DNA of 25,888 nucleotides from positions 1 to 25,888 of the IMG/VR virus record IMGVR_UViG_3300042898_001470. One strand, written 5' to 3'. Below are positions 2,914-19,198 of this stretch, one piece after another; position 1 is the first letter of the stretch; each line of letters begins with the position of its first letter. A model generated the notes under the pieces. It saw only the letters and a list, made by a program, of their open reading frames with translations, was not told where the DNA came from and ran no database searches. This stretch comes from a virus. The translations under genes and the position numbers were made by a program.

Positions 2914-3348
2914 TTACTTGGATCGACCTTGGGCGAATAAATCAAATTCAGTAATAATTCTAAATTTAATATTATTAGCCGCACAGTAGGCCCTGGCTGC
3001 TTGCCATTTGCAGGCATTTAGTATAGCATATGCTTGATCACGTTTACTCTTGGCTGCCTCTAAAGTAGTTTCTTTACTGGGTTTTACTTCCCATAGTTCA
3101 GCATGAGTCTTGCCATTGGCATCCTGAAATGTAACAAAGAAGTCGGGAATATAGATTGTGTTTTTATTAGTAAATGGATTTTTATATGGTATATGTATGG
3201 CTTCGTTGGCCCACTGTAAAATAGCCGGATTGTTATCGCACATGCGCATTACTGCATGTTCCCAACTGCTACGAAAATGTGGAGTTTTTTTACCTACATA
3301 TTTGGCTGGATTCAATAATTGGTAGAATCCATTTGCATATTTACTCAT
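2914..3348 (-). CDS. gp4: Head completion nuclease (T4 gp4-like)
   Basis: 144 aa, close to T4 gp4 (150 aa), a protein needed to finish the packaged head before tail joining. The sequence carries a PD-(D/E)XK nuclease core: Glu30 in SSWEHAVMRMC, Asp69 in YIPDFFVTF, and Glu87-x-Lys89 in LWEVKPSKE. All expected acidic and lysine residues are present, so the fold should be catalytically competent. The start ATG 3348 overlaps the stop of the upstream 124-aa gene as ATGA, pointing to translational coupling. The 3' end is followed 10 bases later by gp16. The family match is strong; whether the nuclease trims DNA ends at the portal is known only by inference in T4. Confidence 0.85.
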   Translation of the reverse strand: MSKYANGFYQLLNPAKYVGKKTPHFRSSWEHAVMRMCDNNPAILQWANEAIHIPYKNPFTNKNTIYIPDFFVTFQDANGKTHAELWEVKPSKETTLEAAKSKRDQAYAILNACKWQAARAYCAANNIKFRIITEFDLFAQGRSK

Positions 3349-3724: not shown

Positions 3725-5344
3725 TTAAAAGTTTCCTGTTGATTCGTTATAAGCATCAGCTTCGGCCTGTTCACGATCAATATCAGATTGTTGTAAAAAT
3801 TGAGGATCTGAATAATCAACCACTGGATACGCCACTGCCCCTTGTTCAAATCTTGGAGATCCGGAAGATAAGTATGTGGTTTCTGCAGGACTTGATGAAG
3901 TTTGTGCTCCAAATACTTGCGAATATTCTCTGAGACTATTGGTTGGACCCGGTGAACTATTTAAATTAATACTAGCTAGAGCGTTGGCCCCGGCATTGTT
4001 CCCAACACTTGCTGCGTAATTCGTCGCATCAACATCTGAAAAGCCACGAGATTTGGCATCTTCATATGCTGCGCTTCTGGCAGCTAAACTAATTGAAGCA
4101 GCATCATAACTTATGGTTCTCTGACCAGTTACTGGATCTACAGTAACCGTGGTGTTCAATCCTGCACCATTGCTAGTGGCCACGCCACCACCTGATCCAT
4201 AATTTGGTTGCGAATAACTACTAAAAAATGCGTTGCTGTCTGAGATTCCAGGAATATTATATGAGTTTTGTGAATTTGCACCATTTCGACTTAACGACAA
4301 GAAACTGGATGCTCCCATTGCGCCAAATACACTGGATCCACCCCCACCACCAAATGTTCCACCAAAACTAGGGATTTGTATCTTAGATAGAGGGTTATTA
4401 CCAGTTAAAATGTTCATGCCAATGGTTTTTAATTCATTAGATGCTATTTGTCCTAGGTTTGCGCCTTTAAATGTGTTAAAGCTTTTAAATGCTGTTAATC
4501 CAGCACCCAGCCAATTTCCCTGTCCTAATTGGTTGCTAACTACATCTAATGCCGAAGTTAACCCACCTGGTCCTAAAATACTCTGTGTACCACCACCCTG
4601 TGGTGTTAGTGGACTAGGAGTTTTGTCGTAATGCAAAATAGCAAATCCATTGACTGTCTGACCAGGGACAATGGTGCCAAAGCTGTATAGAACTGCTTCA
4701 TATGCCACCGTCATGGTGATTTCCATGGTGTTATTGTTGGCATTATTCTCATGATCACCAAACTTAAATGATGTGATAGTGGGATTTATTAAAGTATATT
4801 CAGTAAATTTTCTCTGATGCATACTGTAAACACGAATTGAATTTAGCATGCGTTCAACACTACCTTCAGTATTAGAATAGGCTGCCGGACTGTATCCCCA
4901 ATTTTGTGTCTGCCTGTCAGAGTATTTGCTAGGTTGATTAAATGTCTGAGGGGTATGATCGCTGTCGCGATAATAATGTTGATAATAATTCCACCAAAAA
5001 TATCTAATGACATCAGCACTGTCATCATGAAAGGTGATGGTAATTGGATCGTATTTTAACTTTGTCTGGACAATATTAGGTCGATTGTATGCGTTGTATA
5101 CTTTGTTGTCAACGGTAAATTTAGGTAGTTGTGCTGATTTAACCAACATACCTGCTTCCAATATGGCCTCATTGGATAATCTATTTAAGTTAGGATTTAA
5201 GTCGAAGGCCACATGGAATAAAAATCCATATTTAGGGGCTAGTCTATAATTACTGTCAACAAATAGCCTGGTGGCGTGCTTGTAATCTTTAAGATTAGTG
5301 CCACCACCCAATTGATTTAAAAAATTATTTATTATATTGGCCAC
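3725..5344 (-). CDS. Tail-tube-fold baseplate protein candidate (gp48/gp54-like)
   Basis: 539 aa beginning at GTG 5344 with a weak GGAA upstream and a CATAAATA late promoter 21 bases ahead. The N-terminal 245 residues contain the pattern of the gp19 tail-tube family: FLFHVAFDLNP at 41-51, LPKFTVDN at 73-80, YNRPNIVQTKLKYDP at 86-100 and ITITFHDD at 101-108, then aromatic WWNYYQHYYRD. Its place directly after the tail tube gene fits a baseplate-to-tube adaptor such as T4 gp48 or gp54, but it may be another tube-fold virion protein. Residues 250-539 are a low-complexity Gly/Ser/Asn/Ala extension including a run of five glycines, with no recognisable domain. The structural role is fairly secure; the exact T4 equivalent is not. 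Confidence 0.75.
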   Translation of the reverse strand: MANIINNFLNQLGGGTNLKDYKHATRLFVDSNYRLAPKYGFLFHVAFDLNPNLNRLSNEAILEAGMLVKSAQLPKFTVDNKVYNAYNRPNIVQTKLKYDPITITFHDDSADVIRYFWWNYYQHYYRDSDHTPQTFNQPSKYSDRQTQNWGYSPAAYSNTEGSVERMLNSIRVYSMHQRKFTEYTLINPTITSFKFGDHENNANNNTMEITMTVAYEAVLYSFGTIVPGQTVNGFAILHYDKTPSPLTPQGGGTQSILGPGGLTSALDVVSNQLGQGNWLGAGLTAFKSFNTFKGANLGQIASNELKTIGMNILTGNNPLSKIQIPSFGGTFGGGGGSSVFGAMGASSFLSLSRNGANSQNSYNIPGISDSNAFFSSYSQPNYGSGGGVATSNGAGLNTTVTVDPVTGQRTISYDAASISLAARSAAYEDAKSRGFSDVDATNYAASVGNNAGANALASINLNSSPGPTNSLREYSQVFGAQTSSSPAETTYLSSGSPRFEQGAVAYPVVDYSDPQFLQQSDIDREQAEADAYNESTGNF

Positions 5345-5425: not shown

Positions 5426-6043
5426 TTAACCAGTAATTGTTGCGCCAATAGTACGTGCTATTGCTGTACCAACACCAGTACCAATGGGTGCCTGTAATGC
5501 ATTGTCATACTTGATAGTCAATGAAATTGTAGCTGGATCATTGGTTGCATAATTCATATCACCGTAATCCACTTGACTAATAAAGCATCCATAAATTTCC
5601 CAAGTTTCTAAGATATTAGGTTGATTGGCACCGTTGCCACCGTCCAATACTTCATAATTCAATTGAAATTTATAGTCGATTCCAGAAGCTGCTGTGGCTT
5701 GCTCCATGAAGTCGAATTGCTTCTGCAATTGTTCGCCCACCAACTTGCTGACATTACCACCAGCGTCGTCTCGCAGCATAACTGTAATATCTTGCCACTC
5801 AGGTTTACCAATCAACTTGACTTTACTGTTGTAAACATCAATGGTAATATCACCAAATGTCACACTGGGTCGTTTAATTTCTGAAACTTGCTTGGTCATT
5901 TCAACTACGTTTGTACTAACACCAAAATTTAAAAAGCTAGTACGGAAACGAAATTTCAACTTGGGCATCAACAGACCCTGTGCGCTAGCACTCTGGTTGC
6001 TTGCTAAGGGTACCGTCATTCTTGTTAAGGATGCTACTGCCAT
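5426..6043 (-). CDS. gp19: Tail tube protein (T4 gp19-like)
   Basis: 205 aa (T4 gp19 is 163 aa). It forms the inner tube of the contractile tail through which DNA passes. Family marks are the N-terminal KLKFRFRTSF, then VEMTKQVSEIKRPSV, FGDITIDVYNSKVKL, PEWQDITVMLRDD, and near the C-terminus WEIYGCFISQVDYGDMNYA followed by TISLTIKYDNA. It has a strong AGGAGAT ribosome site 7 bases before ATG 6043 and the only perfect TATAAATA late promoter in the window, and is closed by a good terminator. This matches a protein needed in many copies per virion. It lies 34 bases downstream of the sheath gene, the same 18-19 order as T4. Confidence 0.92.
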   Translation of the reverse strand: MAVASLTRMTVPLASNQSASAQGLLMPKLKFRFRTSFLNFGVSTNVVEMTKQVSEIKRPSVTFGDITIDVYNSKVKLIGKPEWQDITVMLRDDAGGNVSKLVGEQLQKQFDFMEQATAASGIDYKFQLNYEVLDGGNGANQPNILETWEIYGCFISQVDYGDMNYATNDPATISLTIKYDNALQAPIGTGVGTAIARTIGATITG

Positions 6044-6077: not shown

Positions 6078-9000
6078 TTATGCGCCCAAGTTACCAATTG
6101 CGCCGGGGTTTAACAATCTTATTGGAATATAGATAAATTCAACACCTTTCATTGGTTCTATCGCAATATCCACATACAACTCATTACGAGCAATACGATC
6201 TGTGGTATTGTTGCTAGTATCGCAAACTACCAAGTAATCGTAAATGCCGCGTTTAGCTACTAAATCGTTCATTGCACCTTCAATAATAGCTTTAATTTGA
6301 TCACGTGTAATTTTATCGTTAGGTTCAAACAAGAATCCATTACCAGTCTTAGCTAGGATTGTACGGATATAATTAACCAGGCGAGCCACGTTAACACGAT
6401 CCATTGAGCTAGTAGTTGGATTACGGGTTTTTTGTCCAAAAACTACAATTCCAGTACCAGTAATGATTGTAATAGGATTAATATTAATTTGATATAAGCT
6501 ATCACGCAAACTTTGACTAATGCCAGTTCTTTGGAATTCGCCAGTCAAAGCATTAATGTATCCGATGTCAGTCATATTATCAACTAAACCTCGACGGGTA
6601 CCAGCTGGAGCAAACCATTGATACGCTAGATTATCATTTCGGATATATGTACGTAATGCAGCGTGACTTGGTGGTACACAAATAGTGTTGCCCTGAACAT
6701 CAGTAGCTAATCCACTAGGATAATATACTGCCAAGTAAGGATCAGCAGTTGTGAGCCCACCTTCAGTGACCCCGTTGCTCCAGTTGGTTAAACCAACAAC
6801 GTTGGTACTCAATGTCATTGGGGTATCACCGATAACAAATGCTGTGTTGGCGCGATCGTTGTTTAATGCAACCATATTACTAATTGCTTCTGGGTAGCCA
6901 GGAGCCAATATCAAGTTGTATTCAAATTGGTCTTCACGGATCTGTGTATTGCCGTCAATCGCTGACTTAATCGCCTCAATGATCATTGAACGCTGTGCCT
7001 GGTGGCCAGCATACATAGATCCATCGGTTTTATTACCGCTAGCAGTGACCCAGGCGCCAGCTGTTATTTCTTCCCAATACGCACTGCTAGATGATGGAGT
7101 TTGGTTAGTGCTGGATAGTGTTGCTACATATATTGATGTACCATATGTAACATGATCATTTACTGCATAAGAAGATGTACTGGCCCAGACACTAACTTCG
7201 CCTGTATAGTCAGTAAAGTTAAAATAGTCTCCCACAAATCTTTTGACATTATAACCGCTACGACGGGTATTAAATAATAATATACCGCGTGGATATAAAC
7301 GTGCATCAGGAGCATCTAGATCAATATAGTTACTAGTAGCTAGTGATGTGACTGTTGGTAGTGTTCCAGATATTGGATCCACAATACCAGTTGAATCCCA
7401 TCTTGCATCAGCAAATACTATACCATTCTGGCTAATCTGATCAGAATTGTCAATTGCTACCCAACTTGTTCCATTATATCGGCTCAACTTGGGGAAATTT
7501 TCTAAATCACTAGTATCTAACCATATATCACCAGATACTAAGCTGGAATTGTCCGATTGAGTCATTGGTTGTGACGCACTGACAATTACCCCGGCTGGAC
7601 TTGTTGCTGTCAAATTATATCCTCGAGCATCCGCACCAAGGTTCTGATAGCCTTTCCAATTAGTTCCATCATTGACCATAATATCAATTACGGTGGCATC
7701 GTTATAATACCATAATGTACCATCCACTGGATCAGCGTATGGCTGCGAAATGCTAAAGGTATAATCTAAAAATGCCCAACCAGTTATGAATCTTTCCGTA
7801 CCAAAGACTACAATATTGGTAATACCGGATACAAATCCAGCAACTGACGGTATGTCTTGATTACCATCAATTGTATTCAGGGTAATTATTCCACCAGCCT
7901 GGTGCGTCATACTAATAGCACCGTTAGATTCAATTGCAGCAGTAACATTGGGTATATTTGTACGTAATATAGCTGCCACGAAGTCGGAAGCCGTAGTTCC
8001 AAGCAAAGTGATAGTGTAAGTGGTGTATGAAGCGGATCCGGGTTGAGAAGCTCGTAACGTAAATGAATCGTTTTCAACAAATGCGCTGGTTGGTGCATTG
8101 GCTGCTGTTGCTTTCACTGCTCCGGATGTCACTCTAACATAAGGTCTAAAAGCACCCATGTTTAAACTAGTGGGAGCGGCACTCACAGGATTTGTATCCC
8201 CACCCATGTAAATTGTTCCCGCAGCAATATTAGATCCGCCACCAGCTGGATCTAATCCGTATATGGCACCATTTTGACCTAAATAGGTAGACACTGCCTG
8301 TGCTGTCCAAGTGTCTGTTAAAGCATTGTATTTCTTAAATACAAAATTATTACCACCACCCAATGCCCCGGTCTTTAACCAGACACCACCGCTTGGAGAA
8401 CTGGCAGTTCCGCTAGTGTCCCATTGTGGGGCTTCAGCGTATGATCCATATACAACCCCAGTAGTCCCACCAATACCCAAGGTGTTATAAGTACCAGCAG
8501 TTAGTCCCAAAAGGGTTAGTAAGGTTCCAGTACCGGCCGCGATAGCTAAACGTCCATTAGTGGTTGCTCCATCACTACGTGAGTTCTTTGTGGCATAAAT
8601 TGCCAATCGATTATTAACTACTCGGGCTGTTACGCCAGTAATAGCAGCATCATTAATACTAGTGGCCATTGCTGTAACAGTAGTTCCAACTAAAGTCACT
8701 GTGGTGGTATTAATCAACAAAGTGTGTCCGTTAGTCAGTGTTGGACTAGTAGCTGATCCTGTGACCACTGGCCAGGCATTCTGCCACCCAGTAGTACCAA
8801 TTGGATACCAAACATTGTCATAACGCTTGTAAAAAATACGATTGGCTGCTGTTGTTGTTACCACAGCATAACTACCAATCTGCCCAATACTAGTCAATGG
8901 TGTAGGCTCATTGGTTAATAGCGAGTCATAACTTACTGCGCTAGTATCTGATGTAGATGTAATTAATATTGGAGTATATTCTGTGAACGACTGTGTGCTG

Positions 9001-9446
9001 GCGCTCCATTCATAAATTCCCCATCTGGTATCAGCCAAATCGAGCCAAGTGGTGCCATCAGCCACTGTACCAGCTGGTCTGACTGTCGATCCGGTCAATT
9101 GTGCTAGATCAATATCAGCACGAACAGCATAAACACGGTTGCCTAGGCCTAGAGCACTATAAGCAGCCATTAGGCCATATTCGTTACGCTCATCACCATG
9201 AATTGGTGTACCAGCAGCAGTTTGCTGAAAACTTGGGTAACCCAATGCGGATACCAGTTCTCTTTGGCTTCCAAAAATTTGTAATTTGCCAGCATTTGTT
9301 GCGCTGGTGCCAGTCGCTGCCGAGCCATTGATTAATTTATCTTGTGCAGTTGCCAGAAAGACTAGAGGTACTGTACCAACTGCTGCTGATACATATTGAC
9401 TTTCATCGGTAACTGTAATTTGTAAACCTGGGGATACTAGTGCCAT
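6078..9446 (-). CDS. gp18: Tail sheath protein (T4 gp18-like) with large insertion
   Basis: 1122 aa against 659 in T4. The sheath contracts to drive the tube through the host envelope. Conserved parts are the N-terminus (SPGLQITVTDESQYVSAAVG to NRVYAVRADIDLAQL, about residues 1-120) and the C-terminal third from about 815 (DQFEYNLILAPGYPEAISN, YQWFAPAGTRRGLVDNM, GIVVFGQKTRN, VARLVNYIRTILAKTGNGFL, VEFIYIPIRLLNPG), which holds the tube-binding and inter-subunit strands. The middle, about 130-800, is a Ser/Thr/Gly-rich beta-type insertion with at least five K/R-Y-N/D...W hairpins and, at about 750-797, a module like carbohydrate-binding family 5/12 (VWASTSSYAVNDHVTYG ... YWEEI). Such insertions would sit on the outside of the tail. 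AAGGAAT precedes ATG 9446 and a late promoter lies upstream. Identity is very secure; the function of the insertion is not. Confidence 0.95.
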   Translation of the reverse strand: MALVSPGLQITVTDESQYVSAAVGTVPLVFLATAQDKLINGSAATGTSATNAGKLQIFGSQRELVSALGYPSFQQTAAGTPIHGDERNEYGLMAAYSALGLGNRVYAVRADIDLAQLTGSTVRPAGTVADGTTWLDLADTRWGIYEWSASTQSFTEYTPILITSTSDTSAVSYDSLLTNEPTPLTSIGQIGSYAVVTTTAANRIFYKRYDNVWYPIGTTGWQNAWPVVTGSATSPTLTNGHTLLINTTTVTLVGTTVTAMATSINDAAITGVTARVVNNRLAIYATKNSRSDGATTNGRLAIAAGTGTLLTLLGLTAGTYNTLGIGGTTGVVYGSYAEAPQWDTSGTASSPSGGVWLKTGALGGGNNFVFKKYNALTDTWTAQAVSTYLGQNGAIYGLDPAGGGSNIAAGTIYMGGDTNPVSAAPTSLNMGAFRPYVRVTSGAVKATAANAPTSAFVENDSFTLRASQPGSASYTTYTITLLGTTASDFVAAILRTNIPNVTAAIESNGAISMTHQAGGIITLNTIDGNQDIPSVAGFVSGITNIVVFGTERFITGWAFLDYTFSISQPYADPVDGTLWYYNDATVIDIMVNDGTNWKGYQNLGADARGYNLTATSPAGVIVSASQPMTQSDNSSLVSGDIWLDTSDLENFPKLSRYNGTSWVAIDNSDQISQNGIVFADARWDSTGIVDPISGTLPTVTSLATSNYIDLDAPDARLYPRGILLFNTRRSGYNVKRFVGDYFNFTDYTGEVSVWASTSSYAVNDHVTYGTSIYVATLSSTNQTPSSSSAYWEEITAGAWVTASGNKTDGSMYAGHQAQRSMIIEAIKSAIDGNTQIREDQFEYNLILAPGYPEAISNMVALNNDRANTAFVIGDTPMTLSTNVVGLTNWSNGVTEGGLTTADPYLAVYYPSGLATDVQGNTICVPPSHAALRTYIRNDNLAYQWFAPAGTRRGLVDNMTDIGYINALTGEFQRTGISQSLRDSLYQININPITIITGTGIVVFGQKTRNPTTSSMDRVNVARLVNYIRTILAKTGNGFLFEPNDKITRDQIKAIIEGAMNDLVAKRGIYDYLVVCDTSNNTTDRIARNELYVDIAIEPMKGVEFIYIPIRLLNPGAIGNLGA

Positions 9447-9558: not shown

Positions 9559-9909
9559 ATGACAGAACGCAAAATTTGTCCCATGTGCAATCAACGACCC
9601 AGGGCAGTCAACTACATTAAAAATGGCCGGCATTATTACCGTAGCGTATGTGATGTCTGCAATCGTGCTGGCAGACGAGTCAAGCAACGAGCACCGGCCT
9701 GGCATCTAGCGGGTTATAGAAAAAAGCCACAATGCGAACGCTGTGGCTTTAAATTCAAATGGCCCGAACAATCGGGGGTATTTTATATAGATGGTAATCT
9801 TAAAAACAATAACTGGGCCAATTTAAAAACAGTGTGTCTCAACTGTCAGCACGATGTTATCAAGAGCCGACTGGGTTGGCGTCAGGGGCCGCTAATACCA
9901 GATTTTTAA
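9559..9909 (+). CDS. Zinc-ribbon HNH-family protein lacking catalytic His
   Basis: 116 aa with four CxxC pairs (Cys7/10, 31/34, 59/62, 93/96), enough for two zinc sites. The C-terminal half has the layout of an HNH endonuclease: CERCGF at 59-64, then IDGNLKNNNWANLKTVCLNC at 77-96, matching the usual HHxDGN..NN..NL..LC..C pattern. The histidine pair expected before IDGN is replaced by Phe75-Tyr76, so DNA cleavage by the normal mechanism is unlikely; a DNA-binding role is more plausible (inference). It is a single plus-strand gene between gp18 and the dNMP kinase. Its 3' end overlaps the convergent kinase gene by 50 bases, an unusually long overlap, which I accept because both C-termini look intact. 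The start is fixed by the first zinc site lying only 6 residues in. Confidence 0.8.
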   Translation: MTERKICPMCNQRPRAVNYIKNGRHYYRSVCDVCNRAGRRVKQRAPAWHLAGYRKKPQCERCGFKFKWPEQSGVFYIDGNLKNNNWANLKTVCLNCQHDVIKSRLGWRQGPLIPDF

Positions 9910-10522
9910 CACTAGTATACAGATCGTCAATACTGCCGTCGTTGTTTAATTCAACATCAAACTTGGTACCTACCCAGGCGGTTTCACTGGCGTGAATTTT
10001 ATAGTTTTCCAGGATCGCTTTATTGCTGGCCCAGCTTAGGTTGTGTGTGGGTCCACGGTTTACCGTTGCGGCGTATTCAAACCATTCAGGGTCTGGCCCT
10101 CGTTTGGTGCGGATAATGATTCCACCAGCATCACGAATACTACCAATCTCGTTGGGGAAGCGACAATCACTGATAACAATGTTGTCTGTAGTGTTGCGCA
10201 GTCGGTTTTCCAGACTGGCTATCCAGATGTCGTCGTGGAATCCGCGTCTGCACACTTCAGTGCCCCACTGCTGGAGGATATATCTGGGAGTTAGATTGGG
10301 TATTCCTAATTTGCTGGACCACCAGGGATCAACTTGTTCGCGCCAGGCACGGGCTTGGTTAGTGCGACCCTCTAATAGAGTTCGATCCCAGCCAAATACT
10401 GCGGCCACTGCGTCTTTAAGAGTTCCTGCGAAGCTTTCTCTTCTGAAGCCATGAAAATTAACGCAATAATCTGCTACTGTATCCTTGCCTGAACCAATTA
10501 GTCCGACGATACCGATAATCAT
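9860..10522 (-). CDS. gp1: Deoxynucleoside monophosphate kinase (T4 gp1-like)
   Basis: 220 aa (T4 gp1 is 241 aa). The enzyme phosphorylates dNMPs, including modified ones in T4, to dNDPs for phage DNA synthesis in the cytoplasm. It has the P-loop GLIGSGKDT at residues 7-15, the family motif TPRYILQQWGTEVCR at 78-92, and SDCRFPNE at 118-125 with the conserved Asp and Arg. An AGGAG site lies 8 bases before ATG 10522, preceded by a sigma70-type promoter rather than a late octamer, fitting early expression of a nucleotide-metabolism enzyme inside a structural region. The last 50 bases overlap the opposite-strand HNH-type gene. Confidence 0.9.
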   Translation of the reverse strand: MIIGIVGLIGSGKDTVADYCVNFHGFRRESFAGTLKDAVAAVFGWDRTLLEGRTNQARAWREQVDPWWSSKLGIPNLTPRYILQQWGTEVCRRGFHDDIWIASLENRLRNTTDNIVISDCRFPNEIGSIRDAGGIIIRTKRGPDPEWFEYAATVNRGPTHNLSWASNKAILENYKIHASETAWVGTKFDVELNNDGSIDDLYTSVKNLVLAAPDANPVGS

Positions 10523-15879: not shown

Positions 15880-16347
15880 ATGAGAGAGAAAAATTACCAT
15901 TCTGATGCCTTGGCTCGAACAAAATCGTCTCCATTAATCAGTGCTGGTGCCCTGATCTATTGCCCTTCCACTTACAGATATTTATTTTTATTACGTAACG
16001 GACATAGTCATGATGGCAGTTGGGGTCTGGCTGGTGGCAAGATAGACACTGGTGAGACTGTAATTGCTGGATTATTACGAGAGATTCAGGAAGAATTAAA
16101 CCTGGACGTCAGTGACAACAAAATTATCCCGGTGGAAAAGTTTACCAGTGAATCTGGTCATTTTGTCTATCATACCTTTGTTATTAGAGTTGACTCAGAG
16201 TTTGTTCCGGAACTAAATCACGAACATCGCGGCTACTGTTGGGTACCCTTAGATGATTATCCCAGGCCATTGCATCCTGGGGTCTGGCGTACTGTAAACT
16301 TTCAGAGTATTATGGAAAAGATCCGAACACTGGAAACTGTATTATAA
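15880..16347 (+). CDS. Nudix hydrolase
   Basis: 155 aa. Nudix enzymes hydrolyse nucleoside diphosphates linked to another group; the substrate here is not evident. The Nudix box runs from Gly53 to Leu75: GKIDTGE, then seven residues, then REIQEEL. The usual Gly near its end is Asn74, a tolerated change, while the metal-binding Glu residues (68, 71, 72) are present. Around it are the expected strand YRYLFLLRNG and the C-terminal CWVPLDDYPRPLHPG. AGGAT precedes ATG 15880, 7 bases after the gp15 stop, so it is the last gene of the late gp14 operon, an odd place for a metabolic enzyme. Its last 6 bases overlap the convergent DUF115-like gene. Confidence 0.88.
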   Translation: MREKNYHSDALARTKSSPLISAGALIYCPSTYRYLFLLRNGHSHDGSWGLAGGKIDTGETVIAGLLREIQEELNLDVSDNKIIPVEKFTSESGHFVYHTFVIRVDSEFVPELNHEHRGYCWVPLDDYPRPLHPGVWRTVNFQSIMEKIRTLETVL

Positions 16348-18322: not shown

Positions 18323-19198
18323 TTAAACGTTGTATCTACTACGCAGAGCGTTGAAATTTGTGGTGATTTCATCGGCTGTTAAAATGCGATTATACATTTT
18401 TACACCTTCAAAATACCCATTTCCATAATTTCCAGCAGTACTGTAGGTAGCACCAAGTCTGAATACTCCACTTCCGGCATAGGCAGATTGTGCCTGTTGT
18501 GGTGTGCCTGTTTGAGCCACTGCATTGAGATAGAAACCTTTGGTGTAGGGACTGCTGTGGTTGTAGGTGAATATCATATGATACCAGCGGCCTGTGCTGG
18601 TTGACACAGTAAAATCAGTGTCGTTGGCATACATACCAAATCGTATTGTGGTATCGGCAATGTACAAAATATGCAATCCAATATTAGAAGCAGTAGATCC
18701 TTGCCCAAATATAGCAAAACCATTTAATACACTTTGATTGACCCAGGCTTCAAGTGTAAAATTCTGTTGTAAATTCAATGATGCTGTTGTGGCAGTTTGA
18801 TTAGTTCCGTTGAATAAAAAAGTTCCGCCGCCCACAGTTGAACTAAAAGTAGGACTGTTGGTCAGTGTGCCTGTGTTGGATTGTCCGCTTAGGTCGGTCC
18901 AGGTACTGCCTGAGCCAGAGTAACTGGCGGTTTGAGCAGCATCCAACCAAAGTTGTAAACTGGTATCTACCACAGGTGCTCCGGTAAATTCATCAAATAT
19001 GTCTTTGACTTGTAATACACCCGTATTAACTTCTCTCTTGGCCACAGCACCACCTGAAATAGTTACTTCATCAAGTTCTCCAGCAAACACTGTGGTTGAT
19101 GCTGTGCGGAATTTTGCTGGGGCTATAGAGGTATTTTCGTCAAAGATACCGTTGACCAGGAGTGTTCCTGTTTTGGTGAGTCTTGTGGCTATTGGCAT
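18323..19198 (-). CDS. LamG/concanavalin-A-like lectin adhesin
   Basis: 291 aa. The first 75 residues hold a short duplicated unit, TGTLLVNGIFDEN and TGVLQVKDIFDEF, probably a virion attachment segment. From about residue 80 there is a LamG/Laminin_G_3-type jelly roll: LQLWLDAAQTASYSGSG at 81-97, WTDLSGQSNTGTL at 100-112, FLFNGTNQTATT, the hallmark FTLEAWVNQ at 147-155, RWYHMIFTYN, and near the end YFEGVKMYNRILTADEITTN. Such domains bind sugars or proteins, so this is a good candidate for a receptor-binding or virion-surface adhesin. The start overlaps the stop of the 1517-aa fibre gene as TAATG, indicating coupled synthesis. The fold call is strong; the ligand is unknown. Confidence 0.88.
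   Translation of the reverse strand: MPIATRLTKTGTLLVNGIFDENTSIAPAKFRTASTTVFAGELDEVTISGGAVAKREVNTGVLQVKDIFDEFTGAPVVDTSLQLWLDAAQTASYSGSGSTWTDLSGQSNTGTLTNSPTFSSTVGGGTFLFNGTNQTATTASLNLQQNFTLEAWVNQSVLNGFAIFGQGSTASNIGLHILYIADTTIRFGMYANDTDFTVSTSTGRWYHMIFTYNHSSPYTKGFYLNAVAQTGTPQQAQSAYAGSGVFRLGATYSTAGNYGNGYFEGVKMYNRILTADEITTNFNALRSRYNV

Follow-up and report, generated by a model that had tools for sequence, protein, structure and literature searches.

Carbohydrate-binding modules of family 5/12 (CBM5/12; PF02839) share a three-stranded fold of ~45 residues and are found on enzymes. Solved examples include the chitin-binding domain (ChBD) of chitinase A1 (1ED7), S. griseus ChiC (2D49), and a Vibrio chitin oligosaccharide deacetylase (4nz1, 8yfp). 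In CBM5, an adjacent pair of exposed aromatic residues (WW/YW) binds chitin, a third aromatic residue helps and two others build the core (PMC8449059). The CBM12 of chitinase A1 has Trp687 as its putative binding residue (PMC2265269). Modules with the same fold also occur in phage fibres and other virion proteins, including the F2-pyocin tail fibre (25vf), the fibre of Agrobacterium phage 7-7-1 (9rkv), VR7 and Aeromonas tail fibres, and proteins of Pelagibacter phages. The carbohydrate-binding domain (CBD) of one phage fibre, the short tail fibre of A-1(L), did not bind cells alone and did so only together with the stem (PMC10966104).

Two further systems place additional domains along the tail itself. 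In contractile sheaths of types 2 and 3, extra domains, mostly Ig-like, interrupt the conserved core; they are bigger and more numerous in jumbo phages, and roles in adhesion or stability have been proposed for them (PMC9230969). In the 936 lactococcal siphophages, TpeX, an extension of the major tail protein with a BppA-type CBM, binds host cells when fused to GFP (PMC6669499). There is thus precedent for additional domains on sheaths, for tail-borne CBMs in phages and for fibres with modules resembling CBM5/12. By contrast, the literature searched, which covered few subscription journals, yielded no description of a contractile sheath with a CBM5/12 module.

We analysed such a module in a 25,888-base virus fragment, IMG/VR record IMGVR_UViG_3300042898_001470, referred to here in its entirety as the window. 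Among 50,697 phage records compared, none was a near DNA relative. Its genes are those expected of a large T4-like (jumbo) myophage and include genes for a sheath, tail tube, dNMP kinase, neck protein and sheath stabiliser as well as tail-fibre-like genes. The gene at 6078..9446 (−) encodes a protein of 1122 residues that matched the Pfam family Phage_sheath_1C (E 1.8e-13) and the tail sheath family PHROG 10581 (E 6e-210). The AlphaFold2 model of the full-length protein, built with 53 sheaths, had a mean pLDDT of 85.9 and, in Foldseek searches, matched the sheaths of T4, Klebsiella phage KP1 and other contractile systems. The protein therefore possesses the conserved sheath core and C-terminal domain of the gp18 family, the latter domain (Phage_sheath_1C) comprising residues 1012-1110 (6117..6413, −). 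Its alignment with T4 gp18 was confident only in the C-terminal part, and placement around the segment described below was unreliable. The nearest named sheaths were those of Agrobacterium phage Atu_ph07, Sinorhizobium phage Phosso, and Pseudomonas phage Paride and its relatives, with 44-46% identity across about 64% of the protein. All of these phages have large genomes, which suggests that the source phage is itself a jumbo phage.

The genes around the sheath gene include several of separate interest. Directly downstream lies the gene of a tail tube protein homologous to gp19 (5426..6043, −; PHROG 4542, E 1.7e-51; weak PF06841 match, E 0.0038). This tube gene, of canonical size (205 residues), adjoins one encoding a second tail-tube-like protein of 539 residues (3725-5344, −), in which residues 34-220 matched phrog_4542 (E 1.9e-15) and about 320 residues lie beyond the match. 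A head-closure-type protein encoded at 2914-3348 (−) (phrog_218, E 8.5e-40) also matched the N-terminal domain of a TnsA-like endonuclease (Pfam, E 6e-23). Two nucleotide-metabolism genes occur inside the tail/neck cluster: a dNMP kinase gene (9860-10522, −) and a NUDIX hydrolase gene (15880-16347, +), the latter adjoining the sheath stabiliser gene. The dNMP kinase gene is directly upstream of the sheath gene, as it is in Paride, 121Q and GAP32; in Phosso it is one gene farther off.

The original prediction had recognized a CBM5/12 pattern in the sheath protein at 7056-7195. The peptide in question, VWASTSSYAVNDHVTYGTSIYVATLSSTNQTPSSSSAYWEEI, is present exactly, within that interval and at residues ~753-794. 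In the context of the whole protein, the window copy matched the Pfam CBM_5_12 profile with an E-value of only 0.96; a 61-residue segment matched with an E-value of 0.00099 and 19.5 bits. Taken alone, the window copy scored 19.5-20.2 bits, below the curated cut-off of 26.2 bits. At the level of the family, the match was clear: CBM_5_12 matched 20 of the 23 different sheath inserts searched (best E 8.2e-9). Moreover, the top PDB match of a profile built from the inserts was 1ED7 (E 1.9e-5); next came further proteins with such domains and the F2-pyocin tail fibre, and phage tail fibres were matched as well. No further CBM5/12 copy was detected in the other window proteins scanned with Pfam. Among the loci scanned, the insert profile matched a single non-sheath ORF, and weakly so (L057, residues 209-250 of a + strand ORF that starts near base 219; E 0.004).

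Structure prediction agreed with the profile searches. A model of the module alone, built with 26 sequences, had a pLDDT of 82.8, with values of ~90 or more over most of the module. According to Foldseek, this model superimposed on solved CBM5/12 domains with a probability of 1.00 and an RMSD of about 1 Å over ~46 columns. The corresponding E-values were only ~0.01, as is expected of so small a domain. Each of the best 50 PDB matches was nevertheless a protein active on chitin, a chitin-binding domain, a phage fibre or spike, or a protein of a contractile injection system. In a viral structure library, the matches included many tail-fibre and collar proteins, one of which bears the name 'Carbohydrate-binding module family 5/12'. 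In the model of the full-length sheath, in which pLDDT was about 80-91 over the module, the segment is predicted to remain a three-stranded unit of its own and not to merge into the core sheath fold. Together, the Pfam matches of the inserts, the insert profile and the module model identify residues ~751-795 (7062..7196, −) as a CBM5/12-fold domain, with strands at 765-768, 771-775 and 791-793. The domain shares with PF02839 the core Y/V/Y/W positions and the Gly-Asp-x-Val-x-Tyr turn.

Two side observations concern similar folds elsewhere. The module model resembled parts of the Anabaena contractile injection system, namely PDB 7b5h chain AE (All3316) and 7b5i chain AB (Foldseek E 0.05 and 0.17, respectively); folds of the CBM5/12 kind may therefore have been used more than once on contractile machines. 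Within the window sheath, residues ~126-160, 351-385, 573-600 and 636-667 look alike by eye (P..G..W...... Y....W), which suggests that the large middle region may hold more small repeated modules.

The module behaves as a separable insert: at a fixed site, some related sheaths have it and others do not. To characterize this site, we collected ten close sheath relatives and then many more from IMG/VR, yielding an alignment of 175 sheath ORFs, some of them from contigs retrieved in overlapping stretches and one from the window itself. At a single precise point, which lies between the strand N733-V-K-R-F-V738 (7233..7250, −) and the strand at W799 (7044..7055, −), both conserved, the sheaths fell into two length classes. 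Most carry a linker of ~28 residues at this site and the rest carry 66-75 residues that include the module, although these counts do not represent natural frequencies as the relatives were drawn with an insert-bearing query. Relative to the short-linker sheaths, the insert extends over residues ~748-797 (7056..7205, −), and 26 different inserts were recovered. The original prediction had placed the module just before the conserved C-terminal domain. It does lie directly before the block W799-V-T-A-S-G, with which the conserved C-terminal half of the core begins, but Phage_sheath_1C itself starts about 200 residues farther downstream.

We then mapped the module onto a tree of 109 sheaths calculated without the insert columns. 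The module occurred in separate places: in a clade of ten around the window, in the pair L114 and L115, and in scattered members of a third group. Grouping the module-bearing sheaths as one clade, as expected of a single origin without loss, was rejected (p-AU 2e-42). Presence and absence of the module required about 6 changes on this tree, with at least five to six needed. A single gain would entail 16-18 losses, and an origin by one gain followed only by losses is accordingly disfavoured. With equal costs, the reconstruction yielded six gains; when gains were made costlier, it yielded three gains and five losses. These data settle that the module has changed state recurrently, whether by gains alone or by gains and losses. 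Presence or absence at a fixed site is the pattern expected of an extra domain that is tolerated externally.

Inspection of the 26 modules revealed an intact core and a missing chitin-binding site. Y760, V766 and W791 are invariant, and positions 754 and 773 are aromatic in all modules. The core aromatic residues of CjCBM5, Y265 and W299, thus have counterparts (Y760 and W791) in 26 of 26. By contrast, the positions that alignments equate with the exposed CBM5 pair, 777 and 778, are aromatic in only 1/26 and 0/26 modules, respectively, and position 782, equated with Trp687 of CBM12, in 0/26. The window module has L777, S778 and Q782, and nearly all other sheath modules have small or polar residues at these positions. 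We compared nine modules of unrelated phages, borne by tail fibres, by a lectin-like protein and by other proteins; they share with the sheath module this absence of chitin-contact aromatics, and their common phage-type signature is close to STGN.P...YW. Judged by these residues, the sheath module is a phage-virion-type derivative of CBM5/12 that lacks the chitin-gripping residues. Most copies have a Tyr before the last Trp; this residue, Y790 (aromatic in 20/26), and W/Y754 are candidates for an alternative ligand site. The original prediction had suggested that the module could coat the tail with sugar-binding sites. The CBM5/12 fold and the separable insert support this prediction in part, but the idea of working sugar-binding sites finds no support in that form given the absent chitin-contact aromatics. 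A more conventional sugar-binding candidate in this phage is encoded at 18323-19198 (−), amid tail/fibre-like genes: a protein whose lectin domain is of the concanavalin A-like type (Laminin_G_3, E 9e-19).

Substitution rates provided a further view of the module, although the estimates are rough as the module is short. Within pairs of sheaths, dN/dS in the module was well below 1, and about 0.1-0.2 in several pairs. In diverged pairs, dN was several times higher in the module than in the core: 0.221 versus 0.023 in L001/L103, and 0.148 versus 0.035 in L049/L065. Purifying selection combined with faster change than the core is the pattern that would be expected of an exposed module that is functional or at least folded.

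The sheath module differs from each of the systems to which it is most similar. Unlike the classical CBM5/12 domains of enzymes, it resides inside a sheath protein; unlike the fibre and virion modules, which are present in few copies, it is carried once per subunit on a contractile sheath. Like the extra sheath domains of types 2 and 3, it interrupts the conserved core, but it has a CBM5/12 fold rather than an Ig-like one and is a single small module whose presence or absence is tied to a precise site. In the multi-domain type 3 sheaths, the extra domains lie on the outside, away from the tube; the window insert sits at a fixed, tolerated loop and changes faster than the core. TpeX, which furnishes the side of the tail with many copies of a CBM, is the closest working precedent. 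However, TpeX belongs to a non-contractile tail tube, has another and larger CBM fold, and is made by a frameshift, whereas the sheath module is an insertion in every subunit.

The reading we favour, at about even probability, is that the module is an accessory, high-copy, low-affinity attachment patch: a phage-type CBM5/12 insert in a loop of a jumbo-phage sheath. The independently folding module occupies the loop between two conserved sheath strands and, because every sheath subunit carries it, many copies would be displayed along the tail. Each copy would attach weakly to host-surface or environmental glycans through a site other than the chitin-binding site; the avidity of many copies would strengthen this attachment and benefit adsorption. 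The module probably faces outward, as the extra domains in sheaths of known structure sit away from the tube (PMC9230969). A role in adhesion is likewise suggested by analogy (PMC6669499, PMC9230969). The occurrence of the same module type in tail fibres, lectin-like proteins and other virion proteins of unrelated phages argues for attachment. The missing chitin-contact aromatics and the absence of the module from most relatives argue against it, as does the CBD result for the short tail fibre protein of A-1(L), which matched the insert profile. A broader scenario, in which jumbo-phage sheaths possess a preferred docking loop where repeated gain and loss of phage-type CBM5/12 modules gives a tunable, multivalent glycan-adhesion tail whose ligand site differs from the one in chitin-binding CBMs, is less likely than not.

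The main rival, somewhat unlikely in our estimation, casts the module as a cement or spacer with a structural role: it would touch adjacent subunits of the sheath or hold another protein of the virion, such as tail hairs or whiskers, and would bind no sugar. Retention of the fold core in the absence of the canonical sugar-contact residues is consistent with such a role, and a stabilising function has been proposed for extra sheath domains such as domain II of phage 812 (PMC9230969). Nevertheless, an interlocking contact fits poorly both with the frequent changes in presence among close relatives and with substitution faster than that of the core, and use of the same module on fibres and other host-facing proteins also speaks against it. 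The module might instead be mobile and nearly neutral, dropped by recombination into tolerated loops and kept since it is harmless. In keeping with this, the site has seen several gains independent of one another, or both gains and losses, and comparable modules recur across many unrelated virion proteins of phages. We consider it improbable in light of the core preserved in 26 modules and the purifying selection, although the latter could reflect only the need to fold. The original prediction leaned towards a canonical chitin- or cellulose-binding domain anchoring the phage to particles or hosts rich in chitin. This would accord with the closest solved relatives of the module, which are CBM5/12 domains of chitinase and chitin deacetylase. 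It is very unlikely because small or polar residues replace the contact aromatics of both CBM5 and CBM12. Finally, chance resemblance in a low-complexity Ser/Thr-rich loop, which the sub-threshold Pfam score of the window sequence alone might have suggested, was ruled out by the family-wide insert matches, the agreement of profile and fold searches, and the invariant core aromatics.

These results bear on how phage proteins and sheath surfaces are interpreted. Since the nine phage modules lack the chitin aromatics, a CBM_5_12 label on a phage protein is no proof of chitin binding. Earlier ideas on adhesion by the sheath domains of large phages concerned mostly Ig-like folds and had no clean test case. 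The occurrence of one sheath family with and without a small, defined module at a single site constitutes a natural comparison, which makes the role of sheath surface domains directly testable.
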